Assembly: GCF_023822045.1 (NCBI RefSeq)
Contig: NZ_CP084712.1
Coordinates: 806,001-870,000 of the forward strand
Direction of reading: 5' to 3'
Length of the DNA stretch: 64,000 nt
Source of the DNA: Sphingopyxis sp. USTB-05
GTDB taxonomy: Bacteria; Pseudomonadota; Alphaproteobacteria; Sphingomonadales; Sphingomonadaceae
Shown here: positions 15,550 to 52,562 of the stretch, piece by piece
How the letters are laid out: every line of letters starts with the position of its first letter
Numbering within the stretch: position 1 is the stretch's first letter
Notes under the pieces: model-generated
What the model was told of the DNA's origin: nothing
Databases searched by the model: none
What the model saw: only the letters and a program-made list of their open reading frames with translations
Made by a program: the position numbers and the translations under genes

Positions 15550-17178
15550 ATGAAATCGACCAATGTTGCCCGCAATGTCGTGGGGGCGCTCCGCGACATG
15601 GGCGTGCGTCACATCTTCGGCGTCCCCAGCGGCGGCTGGGTCGACTATATGGAGGCGATCCGCACCACCGACGGCATCGACTTCGTGCTCGCGAGCCACG
15701 AGGGCGGGGCGGGTTTCATGGCCGATATCTGCGGGCGGCTGACCGGTGCCCCGGGCGTGTGCTTCGGCACCTTCGGCCCCGGCGCTACCAACCTTGCGAC
15801 CGGGGTCGGTGGTGCGACGCTCGACCGTTCGCCGATGATTGCGCTGACCGACGAAATGCCCGCATCATTGCGCGGCCGCACGGTGCAGATGGCAATCGAT
15901 CACCAGGCCCTGTTTGCGCCGCTCACCAAGGCGACGATGCGGATCGAGGCCGATAGTGTGGTCGCGACACTTGCCGACGCGGCGCGTATCGCGCTGTCGG
16001 GGCGACCCGGCGCCGTGCATGTCGGGCTGCCGCAGGGGATGAGCGCGGTGGCAGTCGAGCAGGCGACCGTAGGCTCAATTGTCACGGATCCTGTACCCGC
16101 TCCGGCTGCGTCCGATGTCGACGCCCTTGTCGCGGCCTTCGCGGCCGCCGAAAAGCCGGTGCTCGCGATTGGCCTCGGGGCCGTCCATGCTGGGGTGCAG
16201 GACCGCATCGTTGCGCTCGCGGAGCGCTTCGGTTTGCCGGTGCTGCTGACCCCGATGGCGAAGGGTATGGTGGCCGAGGATCATCCCAACTATGCTGGTG
16301 TCCTGTTCCACGCGCTGTCCGACATGGTCGGCAAGACGCATGCCGAGGCCGATTTGGTCGTCGCGGTCGGCTATGACCCGATCGAGTTCAATTACGAAAG
16401 CTGGATGAAGGACGGGCTCACGCTTGCGAGCATCGACGTCGCGCCTGCCGACATCGATCGCGACAAGCATCCAGTTGCCGCCGACGTCGTCGGCGCGATT
16501 GCGCCCGCGCTCGATGCGCTGCTCGCGCTGCCCGCGGCGGCCAAGCGCTGGGACCTCGAAGCTCTTGCCGAGCGCAAGGCCGCCATGTTCGCGAAACTTG
16601 CCGGACGCGACGGGCCTTTCGGGCCCTGTGCGGCGCTCGACGTACTGCGCGACGTACTGCCCGACGACGGCATCATGACGTGCGATGTCGGCGCGCATAC
16701 GCACCTCATCGGCCAGCATTGGCGGACGCCGAAGCCGGGCACGCAGATCATGACCAACGGTTGGTCTGCAATGGGCTTCGGCCTTCCTGCCGCAATCGCC
16801 GCGAAACTCTGTCGCCCCGATACGCCCGTGTGCTGCGTGCTGGGCGACGGTGGCTTCCTGATGACGGTCGGCGAGCTAGCGACCGCAGTGCGCGAGAAAT
16901 TGCCTATCGTGATCGTCGTCTTCACCGACAACGACCTCGCACTGATCCGCATAAAGCAGGAAAGAAAGCAGAACCCGATCTATGGCACGCCAGTGCGCGC
17001 CGAAGGGACGATCGGCGGGCCGTCGCTGTTCGGCGTGCCGGTGACGGTCGCGCGCGATCCGGCCGAGTTCCGCGCCGCGCTCGAAGCAGGCTTTGCGGCG
17101 GGCGGCCCGGTCATCGTCGAGGCCCTGCTCGACAGCCGCGAATATGACGAGTTGGTGCTGCGCAAGGACAAGCCATGA
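15550..17178 (+). CDS. TPP-dependent enzyme of the acetolactate synthase / 2-keto acid decarboxylase superfamily
   Basis: The 542-residue protein has the three-domain layout of thiamine pyrophosphate enzymes. The N-terminal Pyr domain carries the activating Glu51 in SHEGGAGFMAD, followed by a middle domain and a C-terminal PP domain. The cofactor motif begins GDGGFLMTVGELATAVRE near residue 432 and ends TDND. ATG 15550 is used because it precedes the conserved N-terminus; the frame is open further upstream, but that text is not conserved-looking. The stop overlaps the aldehyde dehydrogenase start (ATGA). That coupling suggests 2-keto acid -> aldehyde -> acid, as in benzoylformate or indolepyruvate metabolism. 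A carboligase (acetolactate synthase-like) is the alternative. The substrate cannot be read from sequence. Confidence 0.82.
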   Translation: MKSTNVARNVVGALRDMGVRHIFGVPSGGWVDYMEAIRTTDGIDFVLASHEGGAGFMADICGRLTGAPGVCFGTFGPGATNLATGVGGATLDRSPMIALTDEMPASLRGRTVQMAIDHQALFAPLTKATMRIEADSVVATLADAARIALSGRPGAVHVGLPQGMSAVAVEQATVGSIVTDPVPAPAASDVDALVAAFAAAEKPVLAIGLGAVHAGVQDRIVALAERFGLPVLLTPMAKGMVAEDHPNYAGVLFHALSDMVGKTHAEADLVVAVGYDPIEFNYESWMKDGLTLASIDVAPADIDRDKHPVAADVVGAIAPALDALLALPAAAKRWDLEALAERKAAMFAKLAGRDGPFGPCAALDVLRDVLPDDGIMTCDVGAHTHLIGQHWRTPKPGTQIMTNGWSAMGFGLPAAIAAKLCRPDTPVCCVLGDGGFLMTVGELATAVREKLPIVIVVFTDNDLALIRIKQERKQNPIYGTPVRAEGTIGGPSLFGVPVTVARDPAEFRAALEAGFAAGGPVIVEALLDSREYDELVLRKDKP

Positions 17179-18617
17179 TGCATTCCGCTTTGGGGGCGGG
17201 CCGGTCGTTGTTGATCGGCGGCCGCTGGGAAGCGGCGGACGATATGATGCCGGTGACCAACCCCTGGTCGGGCGAGGCGCTCGGTGCGGTTGCCTGCGCC
17301 GACGCAGGCCACGTCGAACGCGCGGTGGCGAGCGCGCTGCGCGGTGCGGCGGCGATGCGCTTGCTGTCGACCGGCGAACGATCGCGCATTCTTCATGCCG
17401 CCGCGGCGGCACTCGAAGCCGATAACGAGCGCTTTGCCGCCGCGATCACCACAGAGACCGGCAAGCCGATCCGTGCCGCACGGCGCGAGGTTGCACGCGC
17501 GGTCAACACGCTGCGCCTTTCGGCCGAAGAAGCGGTGCGGCTCGCGGGCGAGACGATCGCCTTCGACAGTTTTCCGGGCGGCGAGGCGCGTTCGGGATAT
17601 TATGTCTATGAACCTGTCGGCGTGATCGCCGCGATCACGCCGTTCAACGACCCGCTCAACCTCGTCTGCCACAAGCTCGGCCCCGCTTTCGCCGCAGGCA
17701 ATTCGGTGGTGCTGAAGCCCGCCGAGCAGGCGCCGCTCGTCGCGATCATGCTCGCGCGGCTGCTGCTGGCGGCAGGGCTGCCGGAGGAGGCACTTTGCCT
17801 GCTGACCGGGCGCGGTAGCGATTTTGGTGATGCGCTGACGGGGCATGCCGACGTCGCGATGGTCAGTTTTACCGGCGGCGCGCACGTCGGCGAGGCGATC
17901 TGCCGCGCGGCGGGGATTAAACGGCTGGCGATGGAACTGGGCGGCAACGGCCCCGTGATCGTGATGGATGATGCCAATATCGAAAAGGCGGCCTCGGCAT
18001 GCGTCGCCGGCGCCTTTGGCGCGGCGGGGCAGAATTGCATCGGGGTTCAGCGCATCTATGTCCACGATACCGTTTTCAACGCGTTTCAGGCTGCGCTCCT
18101 GGCGGCGCTTAAGGCGCTGCGCGTTGGCGATCCGATGGACGGCGAAACCGACGTCGGCCCAATGATCGGCGCTACCGAGGCCGAGCGCATGATCGCCTGG
18201 ACGGTCGAGGCGGTATCGCGCGGCGCGACGCTGCTCGCGGGCGGCGAGCGCGCGGGGACGCTCGTGCGGCCGACATTGCTCGCGAATGTCCCGGACGATG
18301 CAAGCATTGCCTGCCATGAGGCATTCGGGCCGGTCGTCAGCCTGTTCCGTTTTACCGACCTCGATGCGGCGATCGACGCGGCCAATCGCGCCGACTACGC
18401 GATCCATGCCGCGCTGTTCTCCGAATCGCTCCGCACGGTCCGCTACGCGGCGGCCCGCCTGCGCGCCGCTGGGGTGATGATCAACGACTCGACCGACTAT
18501 CGCCTCGACGCCATGCCGTTCGGCGGCGCGGGCCGGGGCAATATGGGCCGCGAGGGCGTGCGCTATGCCGCGCGCGAAATGTCGCAGACAAAGGTAATAT
18601 GTTTCCATGACGCTTGA
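17175..18617 (+). CDS. NAD(P)-dependent aldehyde dehydrogenase
   Basis: This 480-residue aldehyde dehydrogenase oxidises an aldehyde to the acid. The general base is Glu254 in MELGGNGP and the catalytic nucleophile Cys288 in GQNCIGVQRIYVH. The cofactor region has TPFNDPLNLVCHK, and the C-terminus has MPFGGAGRGNMGREG. The GQNCIGVQRIYVH text resembles the lactaldehyde/glycolaldehyde/sulfoacetaldehyde group rather than the 2-aminomuconic semialdehyde enzyme found at 46594. It overlaps the TPP enzyme by four bases and kynureninase by 11, so all three are in one operon. It probably takes the aldehyde made by the TPP enzyme. The exact substrate is unknown. Confidence 0.87.
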   Translation: MMHSALGAGRSLLIGGRWEAADDMMPVTNPWSGEALGAVACADAGHVERAVASALRGAAAMRLLSTGERSRILHAAAAALEADNERFAAAITTETGKPIRAARREVARAVNTLRLSAEEAVRLAGETIAFDSFPGGEARSGYYVYEPVGVIAAITPFNDPLNLVCHKLGPAFAAGNSVVLKPAEQAPLVAIMLARLLLAAGLPEEALCLLTGRGSDFGDALTGHADVAMVSFTGGAHVGEAICRAAGIKRLAMELGGNGPVIVMDDANIEKAASACVAGAFGAAGQNCIGVQRIYVHDTVFNAFQAALLAALKALRVGDPMDGETDVGPMIGATEAERMIAWTVEAVSRGATLLAGGERAGTLVRPTLLANVPDDASIACHEAFGPVVSLFRFTDLDAAIDAANRADYAIHAALFSESLRTVRYAAARLRAAGVMINDSTDYRLDAMPFGGAGRGNMGREGVRYAAREMSQTKVICFHDA

Positions 18618-19860
18618 AGCCGCCAACCTCGACCGTGCCGCCTGCGAGGCGATGGATGTCGCCGACCCGCTCGCGCTGTTGCGCGCGCATTTCCATCTGC
18701 CTGACGGGATGATCTATCTCGACGGCAATTCGCTTGGTGCGATGCCGAAAGGGGCGAGCGAGCGTGCTCATGATGTGGTGACGCGCGAATGGGGCGCCGA
18801 CCTCATCAAGAGCTGGAACAGCGCGGGCTGGTTCGATCTGCCGGTGCGGCTTGGCGACAAGCTCGCACCGCTTATCGGCGCCGCGCCAGGCGAGGTCGTG
18901 ATCTGCGATTCGACGAGTCAGAACCTGTTCAAAGTGCTTTCGGCGGCGGTCGCGCTGCGCCCTGATCGCAGTGTGCTGATCCTCGAAGGCAGCAATTTTC
19001 CGACGAACAATTATATCGCGCAAGGCGTTGCGGCGGCGACCGGCGGACGGGTCAAGGTCCGGCTCTGCGAGAAGGACGAGATCGCGGGTGCGATCGACGA
19101 AGACACGATTGCGGTCGCGATCACCCATGTCCATTACAAGACCGGTCATATCCACGACATGGCGGCAATCACTGCGCGTGCACATGATGCGGGCGCGCTT
19201 GCAATCTGGGACCTGTGTCACAGCGCGGGGGCGATGCCGGTCGACCTGAATGGCGCGGGCGCGGATTTTGCGGTCGGCTGCACCTATAAATATCTGAACG
19301 GTGGCCCAGGCTCGCCTGCCTTCCTGTTCGCGGCCAAACGCCATCAAGGGCAGGGCTTGCAACCTGTCACCGGTTGGTGGGGTCACGCTGCGCCCTTCGC
19401 TTTCGAGCCCGACTATCGTCCGCAGCACGACATTCGCCAGTTCCTCATCGGAACCCAGCCGATCCTGTCTATGGCGCTCGTCGAGGTCGGGCTCGACATC
19501 CATCGCGCGGCTGACATGGAGGCGGTCCGTGCCAAGTCGATGGCGCTTACGGACCTCTTCATTCGCTTGGTCGAGGCGCGCTGCGACCGGCACGGTTTCA
19601 CGCTCGCCTCGCCGCGCGACGCGGCGGCGCGCGGCAGTCAGGTGTCGTTCGCGCATGCCGAGGGCTATCCGATCATGCGTGCGCTGATCGCGGCAGGGGT
19701 GATCGGCGATTTTCGCGCGCCCGACACGGTGCGCTTCGGCTTCACGCCGCTCTATGTCGGCTATGCCGACGTGTGGGATGCGGTCGACCGGCTCGTCCAC
19801 ATCATGGACGGTGACATCTGGAGACAGCCTGAATATCAGGCGCGCGAAGCTGTCACCTGA
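18607..19860 (+). CDS. kynU: Kynureninase
   Basis: This PLP enzyme cleaves L-kynurenine or 3-hydroxykynurenine to anthranilate or 3-hydroxyanthranilate plus L-alanine. The 417-residue length is typical. The motifs are MIYLDGNSLG at residues 36-44, LILEGSNFPTNNY (substrate/PLP region, 124-136), WDLCHSAGAMPVDL with the PLP-binding Asp202, and CTYKYLNGGPGS with the Schiff-base Lys228. The start ATG overlaps the aldehyde dehydrogenase end by 11 bp, so translation is coupled. Neither tryptophan dioxygenase nor kynurenine monooxygenase is nearby. The dioxygenase that takes 3-hydroxyanthranilate is about 30 kb away (49306), so 3-hydroxykynurenine is the more useful substrate here, which is inference. 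Confidence 0.95.
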   Translation: MTLEAANLDRAACEAMDVADPLALLRAHFHLPDGMIYLDGNSLGAMPKGASERAHDVVTREWGADLIKSWNSAGWFDLPVRLGDKLAPLIGAAPGEVVICDSTSQNLFKVLSAAVALRPDRSVLILEGSNFPTNNYIAQGVAAATGGRVKVRLCEKDEIAGAIDEDTIAVAITHVHYKTGHIHDMAAITARAHDAGALAIWDLCHSAGAMPVDLNGAGADFAVGCTYKYLNGGPGSPAFLFAAKRHQGQGLQPVTGWWGHAAPFAFEPDYRPQHDIRQFLIGTQPILSMALVEVGLDIHRAADMEAVRAKSMALTDLFIRLVEARCDRHGFTLASPRDAAARGSQVSFAHAEGYPIMRALIAAGVIGDFRAPDTVRFGFTPLYVGYADVWDAVDRLVHIMDGDIWRQPEYQAREAVT

Positions 19861-19879: not shown

Positions 19880-21262
19880 ATGGACGAACAGGCCTATATC
19901 GACCGCGAAGCGGGGCTCGAACGCGGGCTGACCAAGGCGCAGATCATCATGATCGGTCTGGGCGGCGCGATCGGCACCGGCCTCTTCATGGGGTCGGGCA
20001 TCGCGATCGGCTATGCTGGCCCCGGCGTGCTCGTCAGCTATTTGATCGCAGCGCTGATTGCCGTGATCATGGTGTTCAGCCTCTCCGAAATGGCGGTCGT
20101 CCATCCGACCGCGGGTTCGTTCGGTACTTATGCCGAAATCTATCTCGGCCCGCTGATGGGTTTTGTCGTCCGCTACACCTATTGGATCCAGCAGATGCTG
20201 TTGATCGGCAGCGAAGCGGTCGCGGTCGGCATCTATATGAGCTGGTGGTTCCCCGACATGCCGGTGTGGATGTGGGCACTCGGCAGTGCGGTGACTGTCG
20301 TCTGGGTGAACACGCGGGCGGTCCATAATTTTGGCTCGGTCGAATATTGGCTGACCGTGATCAAGGTCTCTGCGATCGTCGCCTTCATCGTTGTCGGTTT
20401 GAGCCGTATCTTCGGCATCGTCGGCGATCCCGTCGGGCTCCACAATGTGACGGGGCTTCCCGGCGGTTTCCTGCCGAACGGCTTCTCGGGCGTATGGCTG
20501 GCGGTGCTGATGGCGCTCTTTTCATTCATGGGGCTGGAGTTCGTCGTCGGCACGGCAAGCGAAGCCAAGGATCCGAAGACCGCGATCCCGGCGGCGCTGC
20601 GCACGATGGCGGGGCGCTTGTTCCTTTTCTACATTCTCGCGCTCTTCATCATCGTCGCCTTCCTGCCATGGACCGAGTCCGGCGCGAAGGTGGTCACCGA
20701 AAGCCCGTTCGTGAAGATGTTTGCGAGCGCAGGCATCCCCTACGCGGCGGGAATTATGAACTTCGTCGTCGCCTCGGCGGCGCTGTCGGCGATGAACACC
20801 AGCATCTATTTGGGCTCGCGCATGCTCTTCTCGCTTGCGCGCGGTGGCTATGCGCCGAAGAAGCTCGGCGAGCTCAACGCGCAGCATGTGCCGATGCGGG
20901 CCACGATCGTTACCGGTATCGGCATTCTGGCCGCCGCCTCGCTGTCGATCCTGACGCCGCTCGCTTATAACTATCTCTTCGGCATCGTGCTGTTCGGCGG
21001 GCTCCTCGTGTGGAGCGCGATCCTCGTCAGCCATCTGCGCTTCCGCCGCAAACATCGGTCGGCCGACCTCCCGGTGCGGATGCCCTTCTTTCCTTATGCG
21101 CAGATATTGGGGCTCGTTCTACTTGGAGCGATCACGGTGACGATGGCGATCGACGCCGACTGGCAGGTCGCAGTCTTCGCGGGCGGGCCGTGGCTGGTTG
21201 CGATCGTGGCTGCCTATTTCGTCTGGCGTCGCGTGTCCCGCGGTTCGGCCAGCGCTTCCTGA
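19880..21262 (+). CDS. Amino acid permease (APC superfamily, AAT-type)
   Basis: The 460-residue inner-membrane permease has 12 predicted helices. The N-terminal block LERGLTKAQIIMIGLGGAIGTGLF is the classical substrate-site motif of the AAT amino acid transporters, and FMGLEFVVGTASEAKDP is the matching helix-6/7 motif. ATG 19880 is chosen for its AAGGGGG ribosome site and correct family start. It is the last gene of the kynureninase operon and its 3' end overlaps the convergent LysR gene by 49 bp. Uptake of kynurenine, 3-hydroxykynurenine or tryptophan is a reasonable inference from the context. Confidence 0.88.
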   Translation: MDEQAYIDREAGLERGLTKAQIIMIGLGGAIGTGLFMGSGIAIGYAGPGVLVSYLIAALIAVIMVFSLSEMAVVHPTAGSFGTYAEIYLGPLMGFVVRYTYWIQQMLLIGSEAVAVGIYMSWWFPDMPVWMWALGSAVTVVWVNTRAVHNFGSVEYWLTVIKVSAIVAFIVVGLSRIFGIVGDPVGLHNVTGLPGGFLPNGFSGVWLAVLMALFSFMGLEFVVGTASEAKDPKTAIPAALRTMAGRLFLFYILALFIIVAFLPWTESGAKVVTESPFVKMFASAGIPYAAGIMNFVVASAALSAMNTSIYLGSRMLFSLARGGYAPKKLGELNAQHVPMRATIVTGIGILAAASLSILTPLAYNYLFGIVLFGGLLVWSAILVSHLRFRRKHRSADLPVRMPFFPYAQILGLVLLGAITVTMAIDADWQVAVFAGGPWLVAIVAAYFVWRRVSRGSASAS

Positions 21263-22206
21263 TCCTGTCCCAGTTCGCCGCGGATTTCCGCGGCGACCTC
21301 ATGGACGACGCTCATGAAATAGGCGGCGGCCGCCGACAGCTCCACATTCGCGTGCGTCGTCGCGCCGATGCGCGAACCCGCGCCTTCGAGCGTCACCGGC
21401 AGCGCGACGAGCCCCGCCTGGCTGAGGCCCACCTGATGCGGCATCGCGGCGAGCATGTCGGTGCTTACCAGCAGCGCATGGTTGGTGAGGATCGACACCG
21501 ACTCGATCACGTCGAGCGGCGGCTCCAGATTTTCGTGGCGAAAGGCCTGGTCGATCTGTCGGCGGAGCGAGGTTTGCGTCGGTGGCATCACCCACGCTTG
21601 TTCGACCAGGTCGGCGAGAGTGAGTGAACCTCGTTCGGTCAGCGGATGCCCTTCGCGCACCATGATCGATACCGTGTCGAGATAGAGCACATCCTGCTTC
21701 AACCCTTCGCGCTCGCGATATTCGGGCAGGCGGCCGAGCACGACGTCGATGTCCCCGGTGCGGAGCCCCGGCATCAGCCGGTCGATCGTCCCCTCGGCGA
21801 CCGTCACCGCGATCCCCGGGCGCCGTTCGCGCAGCCGGGCGAGCGCACGCGGTAACAGCGATGTCGACGCCGCAAGCAGCGTGCCGACATGGACGCGCCC
21901 CGACAGGCCTTCCTCGAGCGACTGCAACTCCTCGCCCGCATGGCGAAGCTGCGCGAGGATCAGCTTGGCGTGTTTGATCATCACCGTTCCGAAATCGGTC
22001 GGCGTCACTCCGCGCGACGAGCGTTCGAAAAGCTGGACGCCCAGCGCGTCTTCGAGCTCCTTGATGCTCTTCGTCGCGGCGGGCTGGGCGATATTCAGCG
22101 CCTGCGAGCCCTTTAGCACCGTGCCTTCGTCGGCGATCGCCGTGAGGAGGCGAAGCTGGCGCAGCTTCAGCCGGCTGAGAAGGAAATTCTCGTGAAACTT
22201 AGGCAT
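21214..22206 (-). CDS. LysR-family transcriptional regulator
   Basis: The 330-residue regulator has an N-terminal winged helix-turn-helix at about residues 15-75 (LRQLRLLTAIADEGTVLKGSQALNIAQPAATKSI is its core region). A linker helix and a periplasmic-binding-protein-like effector domain follow. The text is of the GbpR/PcaQ-like subgroup that controls sugar and aromatic catabolism. It is divergent from ACMS decarboxylase across 161 bp containing three ATAGC sites, the usual layout for a LysR activator of its neighbour. The 3' end runs 49 bp into the permease gene on the other strand. A pathway metabolite as co-inducer is likely but unproven. Confidence 0.93.
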   Translation of the reverse strand: MPKFHENFLLSRLKLRQLRLLTAIADEGTVLKGSQALNIAQPAATKSIKELEDALGVQLFERSSRGVTPTDFGTVMIKHAKLILAQLRHAGEELQSLEEGLSGRVHVGTLLAASTSLLPRALARLRERRPGIAVTVAEGTIDRLMPGLRTGDIDVVLGRLPEYREREGLKQDVLYLDTVSIMVREGHPLTERGSLTLADLVEQAWVMPPTQTSLRRQIDQAFRHENLEPPLDVIESVSILTNHALLVSTDMLAAMPHQVGLSQAGLVALPVTLEGAGSRIGATTHANVELSAAAAYFMSVVHEVAAEIRGELGQDQEALAEPRDTRRQTK

Positions 22207-22367: not shown

Positions 22368-23384
22368 ATGACTGACAATGGCGCGAAACAGGTGGCCGTG
22401 ATCGACATGCACAGCCATTTCTTCCCTGCGATGGATGATGCCTATCGCATGCGCGCAGAGGCGGAGGGGCTACCTTGGCTGCGCGATGCCGGCGGCGGTA
22501 GAGGGTTCATCATGCAGGGCGCGAAGGAATTTCGCCCCGTCGACGATATTCTCTGGGACCCCGCGCGGCGCGTGGAGGCGCTCGACGAGCAGGGGATCGA
22601 CCTGCAGATCATCTGCGCGACGCCGATCATGTTCGGCTACAGCCGTCCGGCGGAGCAGGCGCTTGAATGCGCGCAGCGCTTCAACGACGCGGCGCTCGAA
22701 TTTTGCGGGCATGCACCCGAGCGGATGAAGGCGCTCGCGCAGGTGCCGCTGCAGGATATCGACCTGTCGTGTCGCGAGGTCAGCCGTGCGATGGAAAGCG
22801 GCCATTTGGGCGTCCAGATCGGCAATCACATGGGGCTGCGCAATCTCGACGACGAAGGAATATTGACCTTCCTCACCCACTGCGCCGAGGTTGGTGCGGC
22901 GGTGCTGGTCCACCCGTGGGACATGATGGCGCGCGAGCGCATGCCCAAATATATGCTTCCCTGGCTCGTTGCGATGCCGGCGGAGACGCAGCTTTCGATC
23001 CTCTCGCTGATCCTGTCGGGGGCGTTCGACCGTCTGCCGAAAAATTTGCGCATCTGTTTCGGTCATGGAGGGGGCAGCTTTGCGTTTCTGCTCGGCCGCG
23101 TCGAGAATGCATGGAAATATCGCGACATCGTTCGTGTCGACTGCCCCAATCCGCCGTCGACCTACGTCGATCGCTTCTTCGTCGATTCTGCGGTGTTCGA
23201 TCCGCGTGCGCTGACCCTGCTGATCGACGTGATGGGCGAGGATCGCATCCTGCTCGGTTCGGATCATCCCTTTCCGCTCGGCGAGCAGGACATCGGCGCG
23301 TTGGTGCGCGAGCATGACGGGCTGTCGGGCGCGCAGAAGGCGAAAATCCTCAGCGGCAATTCGCGAACCTTCCTGAATTTGTAG
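22368..23384 (+). CDS. nbaD: 2-amino-3-carboxymuconate-6-semialdehyde decarboxylase (ACMSD)
   Basis: This zinc amidohydrolase decarboxylates ACMS, the ring-cleavage product of 3-hydroxyanthranilate, to 2-aminomuconate semialdehyde and so keeps ACMS from closing to quinolinate. In the 338-residue protein the metal ligands are His15 and His17 (DMHSHFFP), His182 (VHPWDMM), His233 (FGHGGGSF) and Asp299 (GSDHPFP). The spacing is the same as in the Pseudomonas fluorescens enzyme (9, 11, 177, 228, 294). Arg56 and Arg244 sit where its substrate-binding arginines 51 and 239 fall. The block [17 protein letters not shown] is diagnostic. It is transcribed alone here, apart from the other steps at 46-52 kb, and is divergent from the LysR regulator. 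Confidence 0.95.
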
Positions 23385-24375: not shown

Positions 24376-24460
24376 GATATTTCCCCCTTCGTCCAAGCCG
24401 GGGGAAGGCTAGTCCTTTGCGCCCGCGAGTCAAATCACGGACGCAAAGGCCAAGGGCGGA

Positions 24461-25363: not shown

Positions 25364-25443
25364 TGGTAGAAACTTCCCTTATTTTCAGAGGAGAAATATG
25401 CCGCGGTTGAGTCCGGCGGTCAAAATAGATTTTCATTCGAAAC

Positions 25444-40766: not shown

Positions 40767-41594
40767 ATGCCGGACGTGCTGAACGGAGATATGCTGACGC
40801 TTGCTGCGATGATGCTGCTGACCGGCGCCGCGGGCGGCGTGATCGCCGGTATGCTCGGGGTCGGTGGCGGCATTGTTATCGTGCCGGTACTCGACCTCGT
40901 TCTTTCGGCGCTGGGCATCGACGCCGACGTGCGGATGCATGTGACGGTCGCGACATCGCTCGCGACGATCATTCCGACCGCGATCTCATCTTCGCGCGCG
41001 CACGAAGCGAAGGGTGCTGTCGATCACGCCCAGCTCCGCCGTTGGGGGATCGCGATCTTCCTGGGGGCGATTGCAGGGGTGATCCTCGCGAGCCGGGTAT
41101 CGGGGGACGTGCTGTCGGCGGTATTCGGCATCGTCGCGTTGATTGTCGCGATCAAGATGCTGCTGCCGCTTGAGGGAAAGCATATCGCCGAAGCCATCCC
41201 GGGCGGCGTGACAGGGCAGGCCATTCCCTTTGCGATCGGCGGCATTTCCAGCATGATGGGGATCGGTGGCGGCACGCTCAGCGTCCCGGTGATGACGCTG
41301 TTCAACGTTCCGATCCACCGCGCGGTCGGCACCGCGGCGCTGTTCGGTTTGCTGATCAGCGCGCCTGCGACCGTCGCCTTCATTATTGCGGGCTGGAATG
41401 TCGAGGACCTGCCGCCCGGTAGCCTCGGCTACGTCAACCTGGTCGGCTTCGCGATTATCGCGCCGGTATCCTATCTAACCGCGCCGTGGGGCGCGCGGAT
41501 CGCGCATGCGCTTTCCAAGCGGGGGCTCAGCCTGATGTTCGGCCTGTTCCTCACCGTCGTCGCGGTGCGGATGCTGATCCGGGCCTTTGGGTGA
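40767..41594 (+). CDS. TauE/SafE-family membrane permease
   Basis: The 275-residue inner-membrane protein has about eight helices and the internal repeat of the TauE/SafE family: GAAGGVIAGMLGVGGGIVIVPVL in the first half and GGISSMMGIGGGTLSVPVMTLF in the second. Family members export sulfite, sulfoacetate or other small organic anions. ATG 40767 follows CTTGGGGGAAACC. It is the first gene of the long operon that ends at 52562. It may export a dead-end anion or take part in uptake; the substrate is not evident. Confidence 0.85.
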   Translation: MPDVLNGDMLTLAAMMLLTGAAGGVIAGMLGVGGGIVIVPVLDLVLSALGIDADVRMHVTVATSLATIIPTAISSSRAHEAKGAVDHAQLRRWGIAIFLGAIAGVILASRVSGDVLSAVFGIVALIVAIKMLLPLEGKHIAEAIPGGVTGQAIPFAIGGISSMMGIGGGTLSVPVMTLFNVPIHRAVGTAALFGLLISAPATVAFIIAGWNVEDLPPGSLGYVNLVGFAIIAPVSYLTAPWGARIAHALSKRGLSLMFGLFLTVVAVRMLIRAFG

Positions 41595-43721: not shown

Positions 43722-44275
43722 CCGATCCCGCTTCCTACCGTCCGCGTCCGACGCGGCTTGGCCATCTTGTGCTCAAGGTGCGCGATATCGACCGCAGCCT
43801 GGCTTTTTATGCGGAGGTTGTCGGGCTTACCGTGTCGGACTGGATCGACCATCATATGGTCTTTCTACGCGCGGGTGAGGATCATCACGACCTGGCGCTG
43901 CTCCAACTTCCGCCGGGGCACACGGCAATCCCTGAGGGGCATTACCCTGCGGTCGAGCATTTCTCCTATCGTCTCGAAACGATCGGCGAGATGGAGCAGG
44001 TCGCCGCGATGCTGGTCGCGCGCGGCATCACGATCGACCGCGGTATCGGCAAGCACGGCCCGGGGGCGAACAGCTTCCTCGTCTTCCGCGATCCCGACGG
44101 TAACAATGTCGAATTCTACACCGACATGACGCAGATCACCGCCGATGATCCTTATGCGCCGTCGGTGTGGGACGGGAAGGATATGGACACCTTCGACCGC
44201 TGGCATCTCGATCGCTTTCTCGTGCCGCCGCCCGCGCGCATTCAGGCGCTGCTGGAAAAGGACGGTGACGCGTGA
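43718..44275 (+). CDS. VOC-family protein, copy 2, inside the ABC importer genes
   Basis: The 185-residue protein of the vicinal oxygen chelate superfamily resembles extradiol-type dioxygenases: RLGHLVLKVRDIDRSLAFYAEVVGL with the first His, AVEHFSYRLETIGEMEQVAAML with the second His, and FLVFRDPDGNNVEFYTD with Glu as the third ligand. The H-H-E triad is what a metal-dependent extradiol enzyme needs. It overlaps the binding-protein gene and the permease gene by four bases each, so it is firmly inside the importer operon. The substrate is unknown. Confidence 0.85.
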   Translation: MTDPASYRPRPTRLGHLVLKVRDIDRSLAFYAEVVGLTVSDWIDHHMVFLRAGEDHHDLALLQLPPGHTAIPEGHYPAVEHFSYRLETIGEMEQVAAMLVARGITIDRGIGKHGPGANSFLVFRDPDGNNVEFYTDMTQITADDPYAPSVWDGKDMDTFDRWHLDRFLVPPPARIQALLEKDGDA

Positions 44276-45024
44276 GCCGCCTGTTCAATCGCGACACCGC
44301 GATCAGCGTGGGCTTTTTTCTCGTTCTGGGGTTTTTGTGGGAGTATGGCGTTCGCTGGTCGGGAGTGCAGTCGTATCTGTTGCCGCCACCGAGCGCGATC
44401 CTGGGCGAATTATGGACTTCGCGCGGACCGATCCTCGCGCAGAGCCTCGTCACGCTGACCGAGGTTTTCTGGGGATTTCTCATCGCTGTCGCGCTTGGCG
44501 TGCCGATCGCGGCGCTGATCTATTTCTCGCGCACCGCGAAGCGCACCGTCTATCCGCTCTTCGTCGCGCTGCAGAGCATCCCGAAGATCGGGCTTGCGCC
44601 GCTGATCGTCGTATGGTGCGGCTATGGCCTGACGTCGAAGCTGATCATGGCGTTTCTCTTCGCCTTTTTCCCGATCATCATCGCGACGCTCGGCGGACTG
44701 GCGAGCACACCCGCGCATCTTGAGGAGCATTTTCGCGCGCTGCGGGCGACCCCGATGCAAAGCTTCTGGCGCCTTCGCGTCCCGGCGGCGCTGCCGAGCT
44801 TCCTCGACGGTTGCAAGGTCGCGATGCCGCTTGCGGTGATCGGCGCGGTGGTCGGCGAGTTCGTCGGGTCGAACGACGGACTGGGCAATCTGATCCTGAC
44901 GGCGTCGGGATCAGGGCACACGACGCTGACCTTTGCGGCGCTGATCGCGGTGACGATCCTGTCGCTCCTTCTCTTCTACGGCGTGGCCTATTGGGAACGC
45001 TTCATCTGGTGGCGTGCAGCATGA
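44272..45024 (+). CDS. ABC transporter permease (SsuC/TauC-like)
   Basis: The 250-residue inner-membrane subunit has about six helices and the cytoplasmic coupling loop EEHFRALRATPMQSFWRLRVPAALPSFLDG, which contacts the ATPase. The C-terminal GEFVGSNDGLGNLILTASG is the typical SsuC/TauC/ThiX pattern. The start is GTG 44272, overlapping the VOC stop, and the stop overlaps the ATPase start (ATGA). With its neighbours it makes a complete three-part importer. Confidence 0.9.
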   Translation: MSRLFNRDTAISVGFFLVLGFLWEYGVRWSGVQSYLLPPPSAILGELWTSRGPILAQSLVTLTEVFWGFLIAVALGVPIAALIYFSRTAKRTVYPLFVALQSIPKIGLAPLIVVWCGYGLTSKLIMAFLFAFFPIIIATLGGLASTPAHLEEHFRALRATPMQSFWRLRVPAALPSFLDGCKVAMPLAVIGAVVGEFVGSNDGLGNLILTASGSGHTTLTFAALIAVTILSLLLFYGVAYWERFIWWRAA

Positions 45025-45770
45025 AATCGGTTATCTCCCTTTCCGGCGCAGGCAAGCGTTTCGACGGCCGGCAAGTCCTGCAGGGCGTCAGCGCCGAGAT
45101 CGGCGCGTCAGAGTTCGTCTCGATCCTCGGCCCCTCGGGCTGCGGCAAGAGCACGCTCTTGCGCTTGATCGCGGGTCTGGTCCCCTTTGAGGACGGCAGC
45201 ATCCGTTTCGGCGGCGCCGAGGTCGAGGAACCCACGGCCGAGATGGGCTTCGTCTTTCAGACCTCGAACCTGCTTCCCTGGCTGAATGTGCGCGACAATC
45301 TGCTGCTCGGGGTCGACCTTGACCCGCAGACGCAGCGCCCTGACGAAGCGGCATTCGCGGCGCTCGTCGAGACACTGGGCCTGACGGGTTTCGAGGCAAG
45401 CTATCCCAGCCAGCTTTCGGGCGGGATGCGTCACCGGGTCGCGATCGGGCAGGCGCTGGCACGCGGACCACAGGTGCTGCTGATGGACGAGCCCTTCGGC
45501 GCTCTCGACGCGCTGACGCGCGACCGGCTCAACATGGAATTGCTGCGCATCTGGCAGCGCGACCGCAAGACGGTGCTGCTTGTCACGCACAGCATTTCGG
45601 AGGCGGTGTTGCTGTCCGACCGGGTGCTCGTGATGTCGGAGCGGCCGGGGACGATTATCGAGGATGTCCGCATCGACCTGCCGCGCCCGCGCGATCCCAG
45701 CACGACGCGCGAGGACCCGGCGTTCGGCGACTATGTCGTGCGGCTCAGCAAATTGATGGGGGTTTCGTGA
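45021..45770 (+). CDS. ABC transporter ATP-binding protein (SsuB/TauB-like)
   Basis: The 249-residue ATPase has Walker A GPSGCGKST at residues 37-45, Q-loop FQTSNLLPWL, signature LSGGMRHRVAIGQAL, Walker B VLLMDEPFGALDA and the H-loop His in LLVTHSISEA. The signature has M-R-H in place of the more frequent Q-R-Q, which is tolerated in this family. It drives the importer formed with 42681 and 44272. The start overlaps the permease, and the alpha/beta hydrolase begins at its stop. Confidence 0.92.
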   Translation: MKSVISLSGAGKRFDGRQVLQGVSAEIGASEFVSILGPSGCGKSTLLRLIAGLVPFEDGSIRFGGAEVEEPTAEMGFVFQTSNLLPWLNVRDNLLLGVDLDPQTQRPDEAAFAALVETLGLTGFEASYPSQLSGGMRHRVAIGQALARGPQVLLMDEPFGALDALTRDRLNMELLRIWQRDRKTVLLVTHSISEAVLLSDRVLVMSERPGTIIEDVRIDLPRPRDPSTTREDPAFGDYVVRLSKLMGVS

Positions 45771-46597
45771 TGGAAAGCGGTGTGCTGGCGACTGCGGGCG
45801 CCGAGATATATTGGCAGGCGCATGGGGCAGGGCCGGCGATCGTGCTCGCGCACGGTATCGGTGGCAATCATGCGATCTGGTATCGCCAGCTCGACGCGCT
45901 TTCGCGTTCGAACCGCGTCATCACTTTCGACCATCGCGGTTTCGGCCTGTCGCAGGACCATGACGGGCGCGGGCGCGATGCCTTCGTCGATGATCTGGTC
46001 GCGCTGCTCGATCATCTTGGCGAGGCGAAGGTCGCACTCGTCGGGCAGTCGATGGGGGCGGGAACCTGCATCGGTTTTGCGCATCGTGCGGCCGAGCGCG
46101 TTGCCGCGCTTGCCATCTGTGACAGCCTGCACGGTATCGCGGAATCAAGCGAAGTGAAGACGATCATGGATGATGCGCGCGCGAAGACCGCGGCGATGGG
46201 GCAGGTCGAACGCGTGCTCGGTGCGGGCGCACCGCGCGAACTCGCGGCGCTTTATCGCCAGATCGCAAGCTTCAACGCCGTCGATCGCCACAGCCTGGCG
46301 GGCAGCTTCGATGCGCGTCCGGCGGCCGATCTCGGCGGCAAGGGCTTTCCGACCCTGTTCCTTTCGGGCGTCGATGATATCCTCTTCCCGATCGAAGCCG
46401 TACGGCTCGCACAGGCGGAGGTCCAGGGCTCCTTCCTTGTGGAGGTCAACGACGCGGGCCATTCGGCATTCCTTGAAGCGCCAGTGCAATTCAACGACAC
46501 CATATTGTCGCTCCTCCAGATGGCGGGGCATGTCGGCAAGGCGGGCGCCGCGCACAGCAATGCCGCGGGTTATGTCGCGGTCGGAGGTGCGGCATGA
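45770..46597 (+). CDS. Alpha/beta hydrolase
   Basis: The 275-residue alpha/beta-fold enzyme has the nucleophile elbow GQSMGAG with Ser94, oxyanion text LAHGIGGNHAIW, acidic residue in LSGVDDILFP and His in NDAGHSAFLEAP. ATG 45770 overlaps the preceding TGA; GTG 45767 is an alternative. It lies between the importer and the 2-aminomuconate pathway genes. It may be a meta-cleavage-type C-C hydrolase, an esterase or an amidase that releases the aromatic amine from a conjugate. Formylkynurenine formamidase is a less likely option because the fold signature differs from KynB. Confidence 0.85.
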   Translation: MESGVLATAGAEIYWQAHGAGPAIVLAHGIGGNHAIWYRQLDALSRSNRVITFDHRGFGLSQDHDGRGRDAFVDDLVALLDHLGEAKVALVGQSMGAGTCIGFAHRAAERVAALAICDSLHGIAESSEVKTIMDDARAKTAAMGQVERVLGAGAPRELAALYRQIASFNAVDRHSLAGSFDARPAADLGGKGFPTLFLSGVDDILFPIEAVRLAQAEVQGSFLVEVNDAGHSAFLEAPVQFNDTILSLLQMAGHVGKAGAAHSNAAGYVAVGGAA

Positions 46598-48072
46598 CGG
46601 ACGCAGCCTATCCTTTCGCCGAACGCCCGGTGCTCAACTATGTCGACGGTGCCTTCGTCGAGGGCGAGCGCTGGTTCGACAATGTGAACCCCGTCGACGG
46701 CAGCGTAGCCGGTCGGGTGTCTCAGGCGAGCCGCGACCTCGTTAACCGTGCGGTCGCCGCCGGGCGCGCCGCGCTCAAGGGGCCGTGGGGCAAGATGTCG
46801 CAGGCCGAACGGTGCAAGCTTCTCGTCCGTATCGCCGAAGGGATCGAGGCGCGGTTCGACGAGTTCGCTGCCGCCGAGATCGCCGACACCGGCAAGTCGC
46901 TGCATCAGGCGCGCACGATCGACATTCCGCGCGGTGCCGCCAATTTTCGTGCCTTTGCCGCGATCGCCGAAGCGCGCGCGATGCCAAGCTTTCGGACCGA
47001 CCTGCCCGACGGGCGCAGCGCGATCAATTATGCGATCGCACGGCCGCTGGGCGTCGTCGCGATCGTGTCACCGTGGAACCTGCCGCTGTTGCTGATGACG
47101 TGGAAAGTGGCGCCCGCGCTTGCGTGCGGCAATGTCGTCGTCGTCAAACCCAGTGAGGAAACCCCCTCGACCGCGACGCTGCTTGCCGAGGTAATGGATG
47201 CGGCGGGCGTGCCGCCGGGCGTATTCAACCTCGTTCACGGTTTCGGCGCGGAGTCGACGGGCGAGTGGCTCACCGCCAACCCCGATATCGACGCGATCAC
47301 CTTCACCGGGGAATCCGCGACCGGCGGCGCGATCATGCGCGTCGCTGCCGCCGGCGTGAAGCCCGTCTCGTTCGAACTAGGTGGCAAGAATGCGGCGCTC
47401 GTCTTCGCCGACTGCGACTTCGACGAGGCGGTTGCGGGAACCGTGCGCTCGGTCTTCTCGAACTGCGGGCAGGTGTGCCTCTGCACGGAACGCGTCTATG
47501 TCGAACGGCCGATTTTCGACCGTTTTGTGAAGGCGCTCGCCGAACGGGCAAAGGCGTTGACCGTCGGCGATCCGTGGTCGGGCGCCGACATGGGACCGTT
47601 GATCTCGCATGGTCACCGCGAGAAAGTGCTCTCATATTATGCTCTTGCGCGCGAGGAGGGCGCAACGGTGGTAACCGGCGGCGGCGTTCCCGAACTGAAC
47701 GGCACGCTAGCGAGCGGCGCGTTCGTCGAGCCAACGATCCTGACCGGCCTGGGGCAGGATGCGCGCTGCGTGCGCGAAGAGATATTCGGGCCCGTCTGCC
47801 ACGTCGCGCCCTTCGACAGCGAAGCGGAAGCCGTCGAACTCGCCAACGATACAGACTATGGTCTCGCCGCCGCCATCTGGACGCGCGACGTCGGCCGCGC
47901 GCATCGCGTCGCGGCGCAGATGGAAACGGGCATAGTCTGGGTCAACGAATGGTTCCTGCGCGACCTGCGCACACCGTTCGGCGGCATGAAGCTGTCGGGC
48001 ATCGGACGCGAGGGTGGCGAACATTCGCTGGGCTTCTATTCCGAACCGACCAATATTTGCGTGAAACTGTAA
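46594..48072 (+). CDS. nbaE: 2-aminomuconic 6-semialdehyde dehydrogenase
   Basis: This NAD enzyme oxidises 2-aminomuconate semialdehyde, the ACMSD product, to 2-aminomuconate. The 492-residue protein has catalytic Cys295 (GQVCLCTERVYVERP), general base Glu261 (FELGGKNA), Asn162 (SPWNLPLL) and Arg113 (IPRGAANFR). Their spacing agrees with Cys302, Glu268, Asn169 and Arg120 of the characterised Pseudomonas enzyme (offset of 7), and the arginine marks the substrate specificity. It overlaps the hydrolase by four bases and is followed after 9 bp by the decarboxylase. The alternative 2-hydroxymuconic semialdehyde dehydrogenase is less likely, given the pathway context. Confidence 0.94.
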   Translation: MTDAAYPFAERPVLNYVDGAFVEGERWFDNVNPVDGSVAGRVSQASRDLVNRAVAAGRAALKGPWGKMSQAERCKLLVRIAEGIEARFDEFAAAEIADTGKSLHQARTIDIPRGAANFRAFAAIAEARAMPSFRTDLPDGRSAINYAIARPLGVVAIVSPWNLPLLLMTWKVAPALACGNVVVVKPSEETPSTATLLAEVMDAAGVPPGVFNLVHGFGAESTGEWLTANPDIDAITFTGESATGGAIMRVAAAGVKPVSFELGGKNAALVFADCDFDEAVAGTVRSVFSNCGQVCLCTERVYVERPIFDRFVKALAERAKALTVGDPWSGADMGPLISHGHREKVLSYYALAREEGATVVTGGGVPELNGTLASGAFVEPTILTGLGQDARCVREEIFGPVCHVAPFDSEAEAVELANDTDYGLAAAIWTRDVGRAHRVAAQMETGIVWVNEWFLRDLRTPFGGMKLSGIGREGGEHSLGFYSEPTNICVKL

Positions 48073-48081
48073 GAGGAACCT

Positions 48082-48857
48082 ATGGCAGACATTGCCGCCA
48101 TTGCCGCAAGGCTCGACACCGCCGCCAGCGAGGCAAGGGCGATCCCGCAGATCACCGGCGAGGCGGGCGACCTGCCGCTTGCCGACGCTTATGAAATTCA
48201 GCGCGCCGCGATCGACCACCGGCTTTTGCGCGGTGCGACCCTGGTTGGCGTGAAGATGGGCTTCACCAGCGAGGCCAAGATGGCCCAGATGGGGCTCACG
48301 GATCAGATATGGGGCCGGCTGACCTCCGATATGGTCGTCACCAATGGCGCGGCGATCGACCGCGCGCGCTTTATCCATCCGCGCGTCGAGCCCGAGGTCG
48401 CGGTGCGGCTGAAGGCGCCGCTGGCGGGCGAGGTGACGCGCGAAGAGGCGTTCGCTGCGGTCGATGCGGTGGCTGCGGCGCTGGAAATCATCGACAGCCG
48501 CTACGAAAATTTCCGCTTCGCGCTTGGCGACGTGATCGCCGACAATGCGTCGTCTTCCGCCTTTGTCGTCGGACCCTGGCTTGCCGCCGACACCGATGTT
48601 TCGGACGTTGCGATGACGATGCGCGTCGACGATGCCGTCGCCGAGACGGGGACAAGCGCGGCGATCCTCGGCGATCCGTTCCGGTCGCTCGTCGCCGCGG
48701 CGCGGCTCGCGGGGGCGGCGGGACTGGTGCTTCAGCCGGGCTGGACGGTGATGCTGGGCGGCGCGACCGCTGCGGCGGCGATTGGCGAGGCGCGCACCGT
48801 GTCGCTCGACGCGGGGCATCTCGGCCGTGTCGGGTTCACGATTGAGGGAGGCGCGGC

Positions 48858-48861
<4 letters not shown>
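48082..48861 (+). CDS. nbaG: 2-oxo-3-hexenedioate (4-oxalocrotonate) decarboxylase
   Basis: This 259-residue member of the hydratase/decarboxylase family decarboxylates 4-oxalocrotonate to 2-oxopent-4-enoate. Key text: [17 protein letters not shown], the metal-binding [12 protein letters not shown] (two Glu), [30 protein letters not shown]. The MGFTS/YENF pattern fits the decarboxylase subgroup; the hydratase paralogue at 49827 has GLT/DWK instead. It begins behind AGAGGAA, 9 bp after nbaE, and overlaps nbaF by ATGA. Both enzymes often work as a complex, which would fit their place in one operon. Confidence 0.93.
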
Positions 48862-49826
<965 letters not shown>

Positions 49827-49827
<1 letters not shown>

Positions 49828-50606
49828 TGACCGCGACCCACGAAGCCGTCGCCCGCCGCCTGCGCGATGCCTATTCCGGCGGAGTTGTCGCGCCGCTGCG
49901 CGATGTGCTCGATCCGACCGACGCGACAGGCGCCTATGCGGTACAGACGATCAACACGCGGTTCTGGGAGGCGCAGGGGCGCCGCATCGTCGGACGCAAG
50001 GCCGGGCTGACCGCTAAAGCAGTGCAGGCGCAGCTTGGCGTCGATCAGCCCGACTTTGGCGTGCTCTTTGACGATATGCGCGTCGCCGACGGCGGTATTC
50101 TCGATCCCGCACGGGCGATCCAGCCGAAGGCCGAAGCCGAGATCGCTTTCGTGCTCGGCGCCGACCTGCCCGATACAGCGACGACAGTTGAGCAGGTCGC
50201 AGCGGCGGTGGTGAGCGTCCATGCCGCGATCGAGATTGTCGACAGCCGTATCGCCGACTGGAAGATCACATTTGCCGATACTGTGGCCGACAATGGCTCT
50301 TCGGCCTTCTTCGTGCTGGCTGACGCAGGATTGCCGCTTGCGGGGCTCGACCTCGAAGGGGCGGCGATGGAAATGCGCGTGAACGGCGCGTCCGCCTCGA
50401 CCGGGATAGGCGCCGCGGCGCTCGGAAATCCGCTGAACGCCGCCGCCTGGCTCGCGCGGACCCTTGCGGGTCGCGGTGAACCACTGAGGGCGGGTGACGT
50501 CCTGCTCGCGGGGGCGCTGGGGCCAATGGTCGCGCTGACACCGGGCGATCATGTCGTCGCCGACATCGCCGATATCGGCACCTGCAGTTTTACCTACAAG
50601 GCGTAG
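49827..50606 (+). CDS. nbaH: 2-oxopent-4-enoate hydratase
   Basis: This 259-residue hydratase adds water to 2-oxopent-4-enoate to give 4-hydroxy-2-oxovalerate. It is a paralogue of the decarboxylase at 48082. Relevant text: [29 protein letters not shown], the metal site [18 protein letters not shown] and [29 protein letters not shown]. The DWK sequence and the lack of MGFTS place it in the hydratase branch (MhpD/DmpE type). Its ATG overlaps the TGA of nbaC. The acetaldehyde dehydrogenase follows after 4 bp. Confidence 0.92.
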
Positions 50607-50610
50607 CGAG

Positions 50611-51540
50611 ATGGCGAAAACCAAAGTCGCGATCATCGGGTCGGGCAACATCGGCACCGATCTGATGATCAAGATCATGCGATTGTCGGACGTGCTCGAA
50701 ATGGGCGCCTTCGTCGGCATTGATCGCGAGTCGGATGGCCTCAAGCGTGCCGAGCGCCTTGGTGTGCCGATCACCGCCGATGGCCTCGACGGCTTGGTCG
50801 CGATGCCCGGCTTCGCCGATATCGGGATCGTCTTTGATGCGACCTCTGCCGGGGCGCACAAGCGGCACAGCGAAGTGCTGATCACCCATGGCAAGCGCGT
50901 CGTCGACCTGACCCCGGCGGCGATCGGTCCCTATGTTATACCGCCGGTCAACGGCGATGCGCACCTCGACGCACCGAATGTGAACATGGTGACCTGCGGC
51001 GGCCAGGCGACGATCCCGATCGTTGCCGCGGTGAACTGCGTCGCCAAGGTGCATTATGGCGAGATCGTCGCCTCGATCGCGTCGAAGAGCGCGGGCCCGG
51101 GTACCCGCGCCAACATCGACGAGTTTACCGAGACGACGAGCCGGGCGATCGCAGAGGTCGGCGGCGCGACGCGCGGCAAGGCGATCATCGTCCTCAACCC
51201 CGCCGAACCGCCGCTGATCATGCGCGATACGGTCTATTGTCTCTGCGACGACGGCGACCGCGCGGCGATCGCGAAGAGCGTCGAAGCGATGGTGGCGGAG
51301 GTGCAGGCCTATGTCCCCGGATACCGGTTGAAGCAGGCGGTGCAGTTCGAAAGCATCGGCGGCAATGCGCCGCTACGCATCCCTGAAATGGACGGCAGCT
51401 TTACCGGGCTGAAGGTCAGTGTCTTCCTCGAGGTCGAGGGTGCGGCGCATTATCTGCCCGCCTATGCCGGCAACCTCGACATCATGACCTCTGCCGCGCT
51501 GAAGACCGCCGAGAAGATCGCGGAAAGGATGGCCGCATGA
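50611..51540 (+). CDS. nbaJ: Acetaldehyde dehydrogenase (acylating)
   Basis: This enzyme converts acetaldehyde to acetyl-CoA with NAD and CoA. The 309-residue protein has the N-terminal Rossmann motif [18 protein letters not shown] and the catalytic Cys129 in [36 protein letters not shown] and [16 protein letters not shown] are family signatures (DmpF/MhpF type). It forms a channelling complex with the aldolase in homologous pathways. The aldolase start overlaps its stop by four bases. ATG 50611 opens on the Rossmann strand and is favoured over an upstream in-frame start. Confidence 0.95.
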
Positions 51541-52562
51541 GTTTCGATCCCGCGACGACCAAGCTCTATATTCAGGACGTGACGCTCCGCGACGGCATGC
51601 ACGCGATCCGCCACCAATATGGGCTGGATCATGTGAAGGCGATCGCGAAGGCGCTCGACCGTGCGAAGGTCGACGCGATCGAGGTCGCGCACGGCGATGG
51701 CCTGCAGGGGTCTAGCTTCAACTATGGCTTCGGCGCCCATACCGACTGGGACTGGATCGGAGCGGTTGCCGAAGTGCTGGAGCACAGCATACTCACGACT
51801 TTGCTCCTCCCGGGCATCGGGACGATCCACGACCTTAAACATGCCTATGATATGGGCGTGCGTTCGGTGCGTATCGCGACCCATTGCACCGAGGCCGACG
51901 TCGCGAAGCAGCATATCGAATATGCGCGAGGGATCGGCATGGACGTATCGGGTTTTCTGATGATGAGCCATATGTCGGAGCCCGAGGCGCTCGCAAATCA
52001 GGCGAAGCTGATGGAGGAATATGGCGCGCATTGCGTCTATGTTACCGACAGCGGCGGCGCGCTGACGATGGATCAATATGCGGCGCGGCTGCAGGCGTAT
52101 GACCGGGTGCTGAAACCCGAAACGCAGCGCGGCGTGCACGCGCACCACAATCTTTCCCTTGGCGTCGCGAACAGCATCGTCGCGGTGCAGAATGGCGCGA
52201 TACGCGTCGACGCGAGCCTCGCCGGCATGGGGGCGGGGGCAGGCAATGCGCCGCTCGAAGTCTTCATTGCCGCGGCGGACGTTTACGGTTGGAACCACGG
52301 CTGCGACCTGTTCGCGCTGATGGACGCGGCCGAGGAACTGGTGCGCCCGCTGCAGGACCGCCCGGTTCGCGTCGATCGCGAGACGCTGACGTTGGGATAT
52401 GCGGGGGTCTATTCGAGCTTCCTGCGCCATGCCGAAAAGGCGGCGGCCGATCACGGGCTCGACACGCGGGCGATCCTCGTCGAGCTCGGGCGACGCAAGA
52501 TGGTCGGCGGGCAAGAGGATATGATCGTCGACGTCGCGCTCGATATGCTCGCGTCAGGCTGA
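51537..52562 (+). CDS. nbaI: 4-hydroxy-2-oxovalerate aldolase
   Basis: This metal-dependent class II aldolase splits 4-hydroxy-2-oxovalerate to pyruvate and acetaldehyde. The 341-residue protein is of the DmpG/MhpE family, with [19 protein letters not shown] at the N-terminus (Arg and Asp of the active site). Further matches are [31 protein letters not shown] and [18 protein letters not shown] with metal-binding histidines. It passes acetaldehyde to nbaJ. It is the last gene of the operon and is convergent with the TetR gene 52 bp away. Confidence 0.95.

Follow-up and report, generated by a model that had tools for sequence, protein, structure and literature searches.

What supplies the substrate for a pathway of 3-hydroxyanthranilate (3-HAA) breakdown when the enzyme that normally precedes it cannot be found? 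This question is raised by a 64,000-nucleotide stretch of Sphingopyxis sp. USTB-05 (the window; positions 806001-870000 of contig NZ_CP084712.1) from a complete genome consisting of a single 4.68-Mb contig (completeness 100). Genes for kynureninase (KynU), ACMS decarboxylase (ACMSD), 3-hydroxyanthranilate 3,4-dioxygenase (HAO) and the remainder of a 3-HAA meta-cleavage route lie here among TonB-dependent receptors, importers and two predicted exported beta-propeller proteins. Because kynurenine 3-monooxygenase (KMO) was not found in the complete genome and because genes for uptake and for an exported propeller protein recur alongside the pathway, we favor, with moderate confidence, an external substrate of the 3-hydroxykynurenine type, or another that yields 3-HAA, which would be taken up, processed in the periplasm and fed into the 3-HAA route.

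Family scans and alignments to solved structures confirmed the catabolic genes that a preliminary description of the window had recognized (positions are those of the window, and genes lie on the forward strand unless noted). KynU (18607..19860), one of two kynureninases in the genome, scored 326 bits against TIGR01814 (cut-off 246) and 505 bits against kynureninase 1qz9. ACMSD (22368..23384) had no match in the NCBIfam scan, and it aligned over nearly its full length with the solved ACMSD 2hbv at 484 bits, the best non-ACMSD relative reaching 69 bits. HAO (49306..49827) passed both NCBIfam cut-offs and scored 289 bits against 1yfu. The iron ligands and active-site residues of HAO (H51, E57, H95, C125, C128, C162 and C165) and the metal ligands and active-site residues of ACMSD (H15, H17, H182, H233 and D299) are all where that description had placed them. 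Curated NCBIfam cut-offs were also exceeded by the 2-aminomuconate (2-hydroxymuconate) semialdehyde dehydrogenase (46594..48072; TIGR03216, 829 bits versus 693), the acylating acetaldehyde dehydrogenase (50611..51540, in an open reading frame (ORF) from 50551; TIGR03215) and the 4-hydroxy-2-oxovalerate aldolase (51537..52562; TIGR03217). The decarboxylase, deaminase and hydratase activities are assigned by context, since a 4-oxalocrotonate decarboxylase-like protein (48082..48861; TIGR03218, 196 bits versus 351), a RidA-type, probable 2-aminomuconate deaminase (48858..49301; 80 of 106 bits) and a 2-oxopent-4-enoate hydratase-like protein (49827..50606, ORF from 49671; 298 of 350 bits) belong to the right families yet fall below the cut-offs.

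The operon that contains HAO is longer than first described. Its genes from 46594 to 52562 were correctly grouped, but spacing moves the start to 40767 and leaves ACMSD outside, giving 14 genes from a TauE/SafE transporter (40767..41594; PF01925) to the aldolase, each separated from the next by -4 to +9 bases. Between the transporter and the semialdehyde dehydrogenase, family matches identify FAA hydrolase family protein 2 (41601..42677), an NMT1-type substrate-binding protein (42681..43721), a VOC protein with extradiol-dioxygenase-like matches below cut-off (43718..44275), an ABC permease (44272..45024), an ABC ATPase (45021..45770, ORF from 44811) and an alpha/beta hydrolase (45767..46597). 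Given this spacing, HAO most likely shares one transcription unit with the ABC importer, FAA hydrolase 2, the VOC protein and the alpha/beta hydrolase. FAA hydrolase 2 also carries an N-terminal extension (41601-41762) with an RR motif and a hydrophobic stretch that appears Tat-like by eye and is absent from most Burkholderiales copies examined.

Genome-wide profile and query searches placed no match for tryptophan 2,3-dioxygenase (TDO), a cyclase-type formamidase or KMO inside the window (806001-870000), in agreement with the preliminary description. That description had also reasoned that upper-pathway genes clustered elsewhere, together with growth only on tryptophan, would indicate an ordinary split tryptophan pathway. 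TDO, a cyclase-family formamidase candidate and the second kynureninase do lie side by side outside the window, at 1338-1341 kb of the genome, which bears out half of that expectation, but KMO was not found. TDO is over the cut-off for PF03301 (193 bits) and below that for TIGR03036 (357 bits versus 391), and the formamidase candidate is a PF04199 cyclase between TDO and KynU, matched at the family level only. After kynA-kynB-kynU, this run (L020 6175-12012; 1338-1344 kb of the genome) continues with genes for a nitrilase-like protein, a double-cupin protein and an FAA hydrolase, a gene content that suggests another, unusual fate for the anthranilate.

The best match of a KMO query, verified against the PDB, to the complete genome was 26 bits over 86 residues. 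Only three of the 16 genome matches to PF01494 span most of the model, and these scored 19-26 bits over 40-86 residues against the same query. One of them, L004, was compared with the PDB; its nearest entry was 6-hydroxynicotinate 3-monooxygenase (229 bits), and its score with KMO was 40 bits. No HpaB-type hydroxylase was present in the complete genome, other hydroxylase types not being excluded by this search; with neither KMO nor an HpaB-type enzyme found, there is no known route by which a split tryptophan pathway would be complete. The query itself performs as expected, since it finds KMO in 12 genomes of a less biased sample of 398 from Pseudomonadota, all 12 of which have HAO. At a threshold of 1e-20 it detected no KMO in any of the 49 genomes searched among those that hold the 77 propeller loci described below, and it found none in 289 genomes of the same class. 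KMO may simply be scarce in propeller-bearing lineages anyway.

The two proteins overlooked in the preliminary description, paralogs of 588 and 584 residues, are encoded among the TonB receptors. The gene for paralog 1 (12042..13796) starts just after TonB-dependent receptor 2 (9652..12024), which ends 17 bases ahead of it, and that for paralog 2 (7593..9359) lies on the reverse strand. Their N-termini look like signal peptides by eye. Neither protein has an NCBIfam match, and Pfam gave weak, short propeller-repeat matches, namely a 21-residue Beta_propel match alone for paralog 1 and LVIVD alone (E 0.04) for paralog 2; among the matches listed (120 of 600), named homologs were hypothetical or LVIVD-repeat proteins. 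An AF2 model built from 45 sequences (pLDDT 89.8, pTM 0.88) reads as a beta-propeller. The top Foldseek match in the PDB was the phosphotriesterase 5hrm (E 2e-15, 15% identity, TM-score 0.48-0.57, rmsd about 9), and the next unrelated matches were WD40 proteins (E 1e-8). The 50 best VIA-align rows, mostly WD40 propellers, did not include 5hrm, and a profile search matched the 5hrm protein weakly (E 0.0096 over 36 residues). Positions 493-567 of the same profile, in the C-terminal part of the propeller protein, matched the PDB entry Mpf2Ba1 above 5hrm (E 7.6e-5 over 75 residues). The likeness to Sb-PTE (5hrm), the haloalkylphosphorus hydrolase/phosphotriesterase of Sphingobium sp. TCM1, consists of the best Foldseek E-value and a weak profile match, whereas identity is low, VIA-align did not single it out and none of the histidines is conserved in every one of the 45 propeller sequences (H119 is kept in at least 90%).

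A genome scan confirmed 152 propeller relatives, and the best 77 loci were examined for neighboring genes within about 10 kb (tblastn, E 1e-10, at least half of the query length). Kynureninase was found at 29 of these loci, ACMSD at 27 (at L102 with 26% identity only) and HAO at 26; the amino acid permease was present at 33, VOC at 36, FAA hydrolase 2 at 35 and the NMT1 protein at 30. A DHDPS-like protein, an HSL-type hydrolase and a D-2-hydroxyacid dehydrogenase each occurred at 35 loci and a GntR regulator at 29. In many Pseudomonadota the propeller relatives accompany the pathway, mostly beside a porin or TonB receptor. The porin family was present at 44 loci, mostly immediately upstream of the propeller gene; its label is borrowed from an annotated porin beside the propeller gene on plasmid relatives, and a scan of one member against NCBIfam gave no match. 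The counts do not represent independent events, since the loci were picked for holding a propeller gene, many of their contigs are truncated and related strains contribute more than their share. A putative lipoprotein, recognized by eye, directly follows the propeller gene in the window (13820..14737; weak F5/F8-type C match, E 0.0056) and is present at 12 of the 77 loci, 11 with the Sphingopyxis-type arrangement and L096.

The link to HAO extends beyond immediate neighborhoods. Among 51 propeller loci without HAO nearby, the genomes of 49 were searched and 47 carried HAO elsewhere, so that 73 of 75 propeller loci (26 nearby and 47 elsewhere) belong to HAO-bearing genomes, compared with 26 of 398 in the background; as L046 and L107 carry the name of one metagenome-assembled genome, this corresponds to 72 of 74 genomes. 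Propellers were detected in four genomes of the 398-genome sample (E up to 1e-40), our own included, and all four have HAO and lack a KMO match. The association also reaches Streptomyces cyaneofuscatus, a plasmid of which carries in one run a divergent LysR gene and genes for a semialdehyde dehydrogenase, two FAA-family proteins, RidA, HAO, an amidohydrolase, acetaldehyde dehydrogenase, aldolase, KynU, the propeller protein and an amino acid permease, the last three coming behind a full 3-HAA route. TDO, formamidase and KMO are not annotated in the 21.6 kb shown of this plasmid. The kynU gene lies within about 10 kb of the propeller gene on plasmids of Phaeobacter, Tritonibacter, Roseateles, Diaphorobacter, Ensifer and Shinella; on a Salinivibrio plasmid none was found within that distance. 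At four loci from rhizobia, a roseobacter and Roseateles sp. XES5 (L030 10014-16360, L031, L033 and L126), HAO is accompanied by DHDPS-family, aspartate-dehydrogenase-family and SSADH-like proteins, and no ACMSD is annotated in the stretch shown; this arrangement is possibly another lower route for 3-HAA.

Comparison with other Sphingopyxis strains bears on how the genes in the window belong together. The upstream genes (cluster A, 3.1-23.4 kb) and the downstream genes (cluster B, 39.3-52.6 kb) are parted by a 15.9-kb block (23385-39305) that holds a sigma factor, a pseudouridine synthase, chemotaxis genes, an amidase, a TonB receptor and an M19 peptidase. The two groups are contiguous in two other Sphingopyxis, sp. 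H073 and G530, where the genes for VOC family protein 2 and aspartate-dehydrogenase-like protein 2 and the TauE operon begin no more than about 200 bases after ACMSD; in the window the first two are encoded on the reverse strand at 39306..39752 and 39781..40575, the latter over the NF009825 cut-off. The locus of strain H073 (L036, 91%) is the closest of the 77, and its gene order in cluster A is identical; in the part of H073 examined beyond HAO, the last three genes of the operon were not detected. We consider it probable that A and B derive from one ancestral catabolic cluster for an external compound that yields 3-HAA.

We propose the following scheme from gene content and family membership. 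The TonB receptor (in many other Proteobacteria, a porin) would carry the substrate across the outer membrane, and the periplasmic propeller protein would cleave or capture it. The freed amino acid could then enter through the amino acid permease, and kynureninase would split 3-hydroxykynurenine, or a near analog, into 3-HAA and alanine. HAO, the semialdehyde dehydrogenase, the deaminase-, decarboxylase- and hydratase-family proteins, the aldolase and acetaldehyde dehydrogenase, with ACMSD in the set, would convert 3-HAA to pyruvate and acetyl-CoA. The other half of the substrate, or a second form of it, probably falls to FAA hydrolase 2, the VOC protein and the alpha/beta hydrolase, and tryptophan itself is probably converted to anthranilate by the separate kynA-kynB-kynU cluster. 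More tentatively, and with rather less confidence than in external supply as such, the propellers may be a new exported enzyme family that attacks an extracellular pigment or conjugate, such as an ommochrome-like dimer or a 3-hydroxykynurenine ester or sulfate, to free 3-hydroxykynurenine or 3-HAA, and would then mark a widespread, unnamed scavenging system of Pseudomonadota and Actinomycetota that typically lacks KMO.

Several observations weigh against external supply of a 3-hydroxykynurenine-type compound. TDO and a formamidase-family protein are present in the genome; two propeller-bearing Sphingopyxis drafts, of the 49 genomes searched, show no HAO; many Burkholderiales propellers sit with a VOC/FAA-hydrolase module without HAO nearby; and several loci (e.g., L047, L048, L109 and that of Salinivibrio) have no pathway or module genes nearby. 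The most serious point is the kynureninase itself, which has W and GT at the positions equivalent to H102, S332 and N333 of the human enzyme. GT occurs in 39 of 39 propeller- or HAO-linked kynureninases, W in 37 and H in two, while all seven KMO-linked kynureninases have SN and none has W. The W/GT type reportedly (Lima, 2009) goes with a preference for kynurenine over 3-hydroxykynurenine, which speaks partly against the latter as substrate; either 3-hydroxykynurenine is nevertheless used by these enzymes, or their actual substrate is another compound. It is mainly because of these residues that our confidence is no more than moderate. The earlier proposal of feeding on an external precursor is partly supported, as to an outside source, by the missing KMO and the conserved uptake genes and propeller, and weakened by the split-pathway genes elsewhere and the W/GT kynureninase.

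The same residues speak for an ordinary split tryptophan pathway, in which TDO, KynB and KynU yield anthranilate or kynurenine and an unrecognized hydroxylase supplies the 3-hydroxy compound for HAO. The cluster at 1338-1341 kb and the unassigned flavoprotein monooxygenases of the genome (e.g., L002 and L004) fit this explanation, but the search that left other hydroxylase types open found neither KMO nor an HpaB-type enzyme, L004 has 6-hydroxynicotinate 3-monooxygenase as its nearest solved relative, the kynABU genes run on into the nitrilase-like, double-cupin and FAA hydrolase genes, and KMO was found in none of the 49 propeller genomes searched; we therefore regard it as unlikely. We give about the same low weight to a feed that is not an amino acid, whereby the ring of a quinoline (xanthurenate, for example) would be opened to give an acylpyruvate, from which FAA hydrolase 2 would release pyruvate and 3-HAA. 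Alternatively, a nitro- or N-acyl-3-HAA would be used; kynureninase would then be a side entry in either case. Such a feed would account for FAA hydrolase 2, the VOC protein and the alpha/beta hydrolase in the HAO operon, mostly with 4-base overlaps, for the NMT1-type importer and for the resemblance of FAA hydrolase 2 to acylpyruvases and HpcE/diketo-deoxyrhamnonate hydrolases. It sits less well with kynureninase and the amino acid permease, which are adjacent here and near each other in Streptomyces, with the Streptomyces operon, which has no annotated VOC protein or ABC importer, and with the failure to identify a quinoline-ring hydroxylase. The product of HAO can cyclize to quinolinate, and the HAO branch could in principle serve NAD synthesis, but HAO is accompanied by ACMSD and a catabolic set, and the KMO-KynU pairing seen at seven of eight fetched KMO loci is missing here, which makes this role very improbable.

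Compared with known systems, the lower route is the 3-HAA meta pathway, said to have been described by Colabroy and Begley in 2005 for B. cepacia J2315. With the nba-type pathway, which starts from 2-nitrobenzoate, with the nitroreductase NbaA and the mutase NbaB as its upper enzymes, and not, as the preliminary description had it, from tryptophan, the window shares HAO, ACMSD, the semialdehyde dehydrogenase, the deaminase-, decarboxylase- and hydratase-family proteins, the aldolase and the acylating dehydrogenase. In contrast to that pathway, no KMO was detected in the Sphingopyxis genome, the HAO operon adds an ABC importer, VOC, FAA and alpha/beta hydrolases, and exported propellers and TonB receptors accompany the cluster. 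In Cupriavidus metallidurans CH34, our analysis also places genes for a propeller protein, a VOC protein and an FAA hydrolase next to those for HAO and KynU. A reconstruction of this strain lists onb 3-HAA genes with kynU as the entry for 3-hydroxy-L-kynurenine and the tryptophan kyn genes separate (PMC8879955), and thus resembles our system in keeping a kynU entry to 3-HAA apart from tryptophan-kyn genes. Because of this reconstruction, the idea of 3-hydroxykynurenine entry is not new; the portion of the account available to us mentions no exported protein, uptake or missing KMO and reports no test of 3-hydroxy-L-kynurenine (PMC8879955). Within the literature searched, three findings are new: an exported propeller partnered by a porin or TonB receptor, the close association of this propeller with HAO, and the failure to find KMO in any genome tested for it together with the propeller.

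The remaining genes of cluster A begin with TonB-dependent receptor 1 (3144..5396, ORF from 3057; PF00593 and PF07715), which is conserved in L036, L040, L043 and L044 and is one of five such receptors in the window, the number given previously and confirmed by domain matches. It overlaps by 4 bases with aspartate-dehydrogenase-like protein 1 (5393..6184; PF01958, below every NCBIfam cut-off), and an MFS transporter of the aromatic acid/H+ symporter type (6181..7503; below cut-off) follows. Downstream of the lipoprotein are FAA hydrolase family protein 1 (14754..15437, ORF from 14685; PF01557), a ThDP-dependent, acetolactate-synthase-like enzyme (15550..17178, ORF from 15487; below cut-offs) and an aldehyde dehydrogenase (17175..18617; below cut-offs). 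KynU is followed by the amino acid permease (19880..21262, ORF from 19754; PF00324 and NCBIfam) and, on the reverse strand, a LysR regulator identified by a domain match (21214..22206). Downstream of the HAO operon, at 55837-61068, a sulfatase, an AMP-binding enzyme, a DUF5938 protein and an SDR lie between two TonB receptors.

Taken as we favor it, the locus points to bacteria that live on hydroxykynurenines from other organisms (animals, insects, fungi or other microbes) instead of on tryptophan of their own. It also offers a testable role for a widespread exported protein family that databases label hypothetical. Such a system could further account for some of the genomes with HAO but without KMO, which make up 14 of the 26 HAO genomes in our sample, four of the 14 carrying a propeller.

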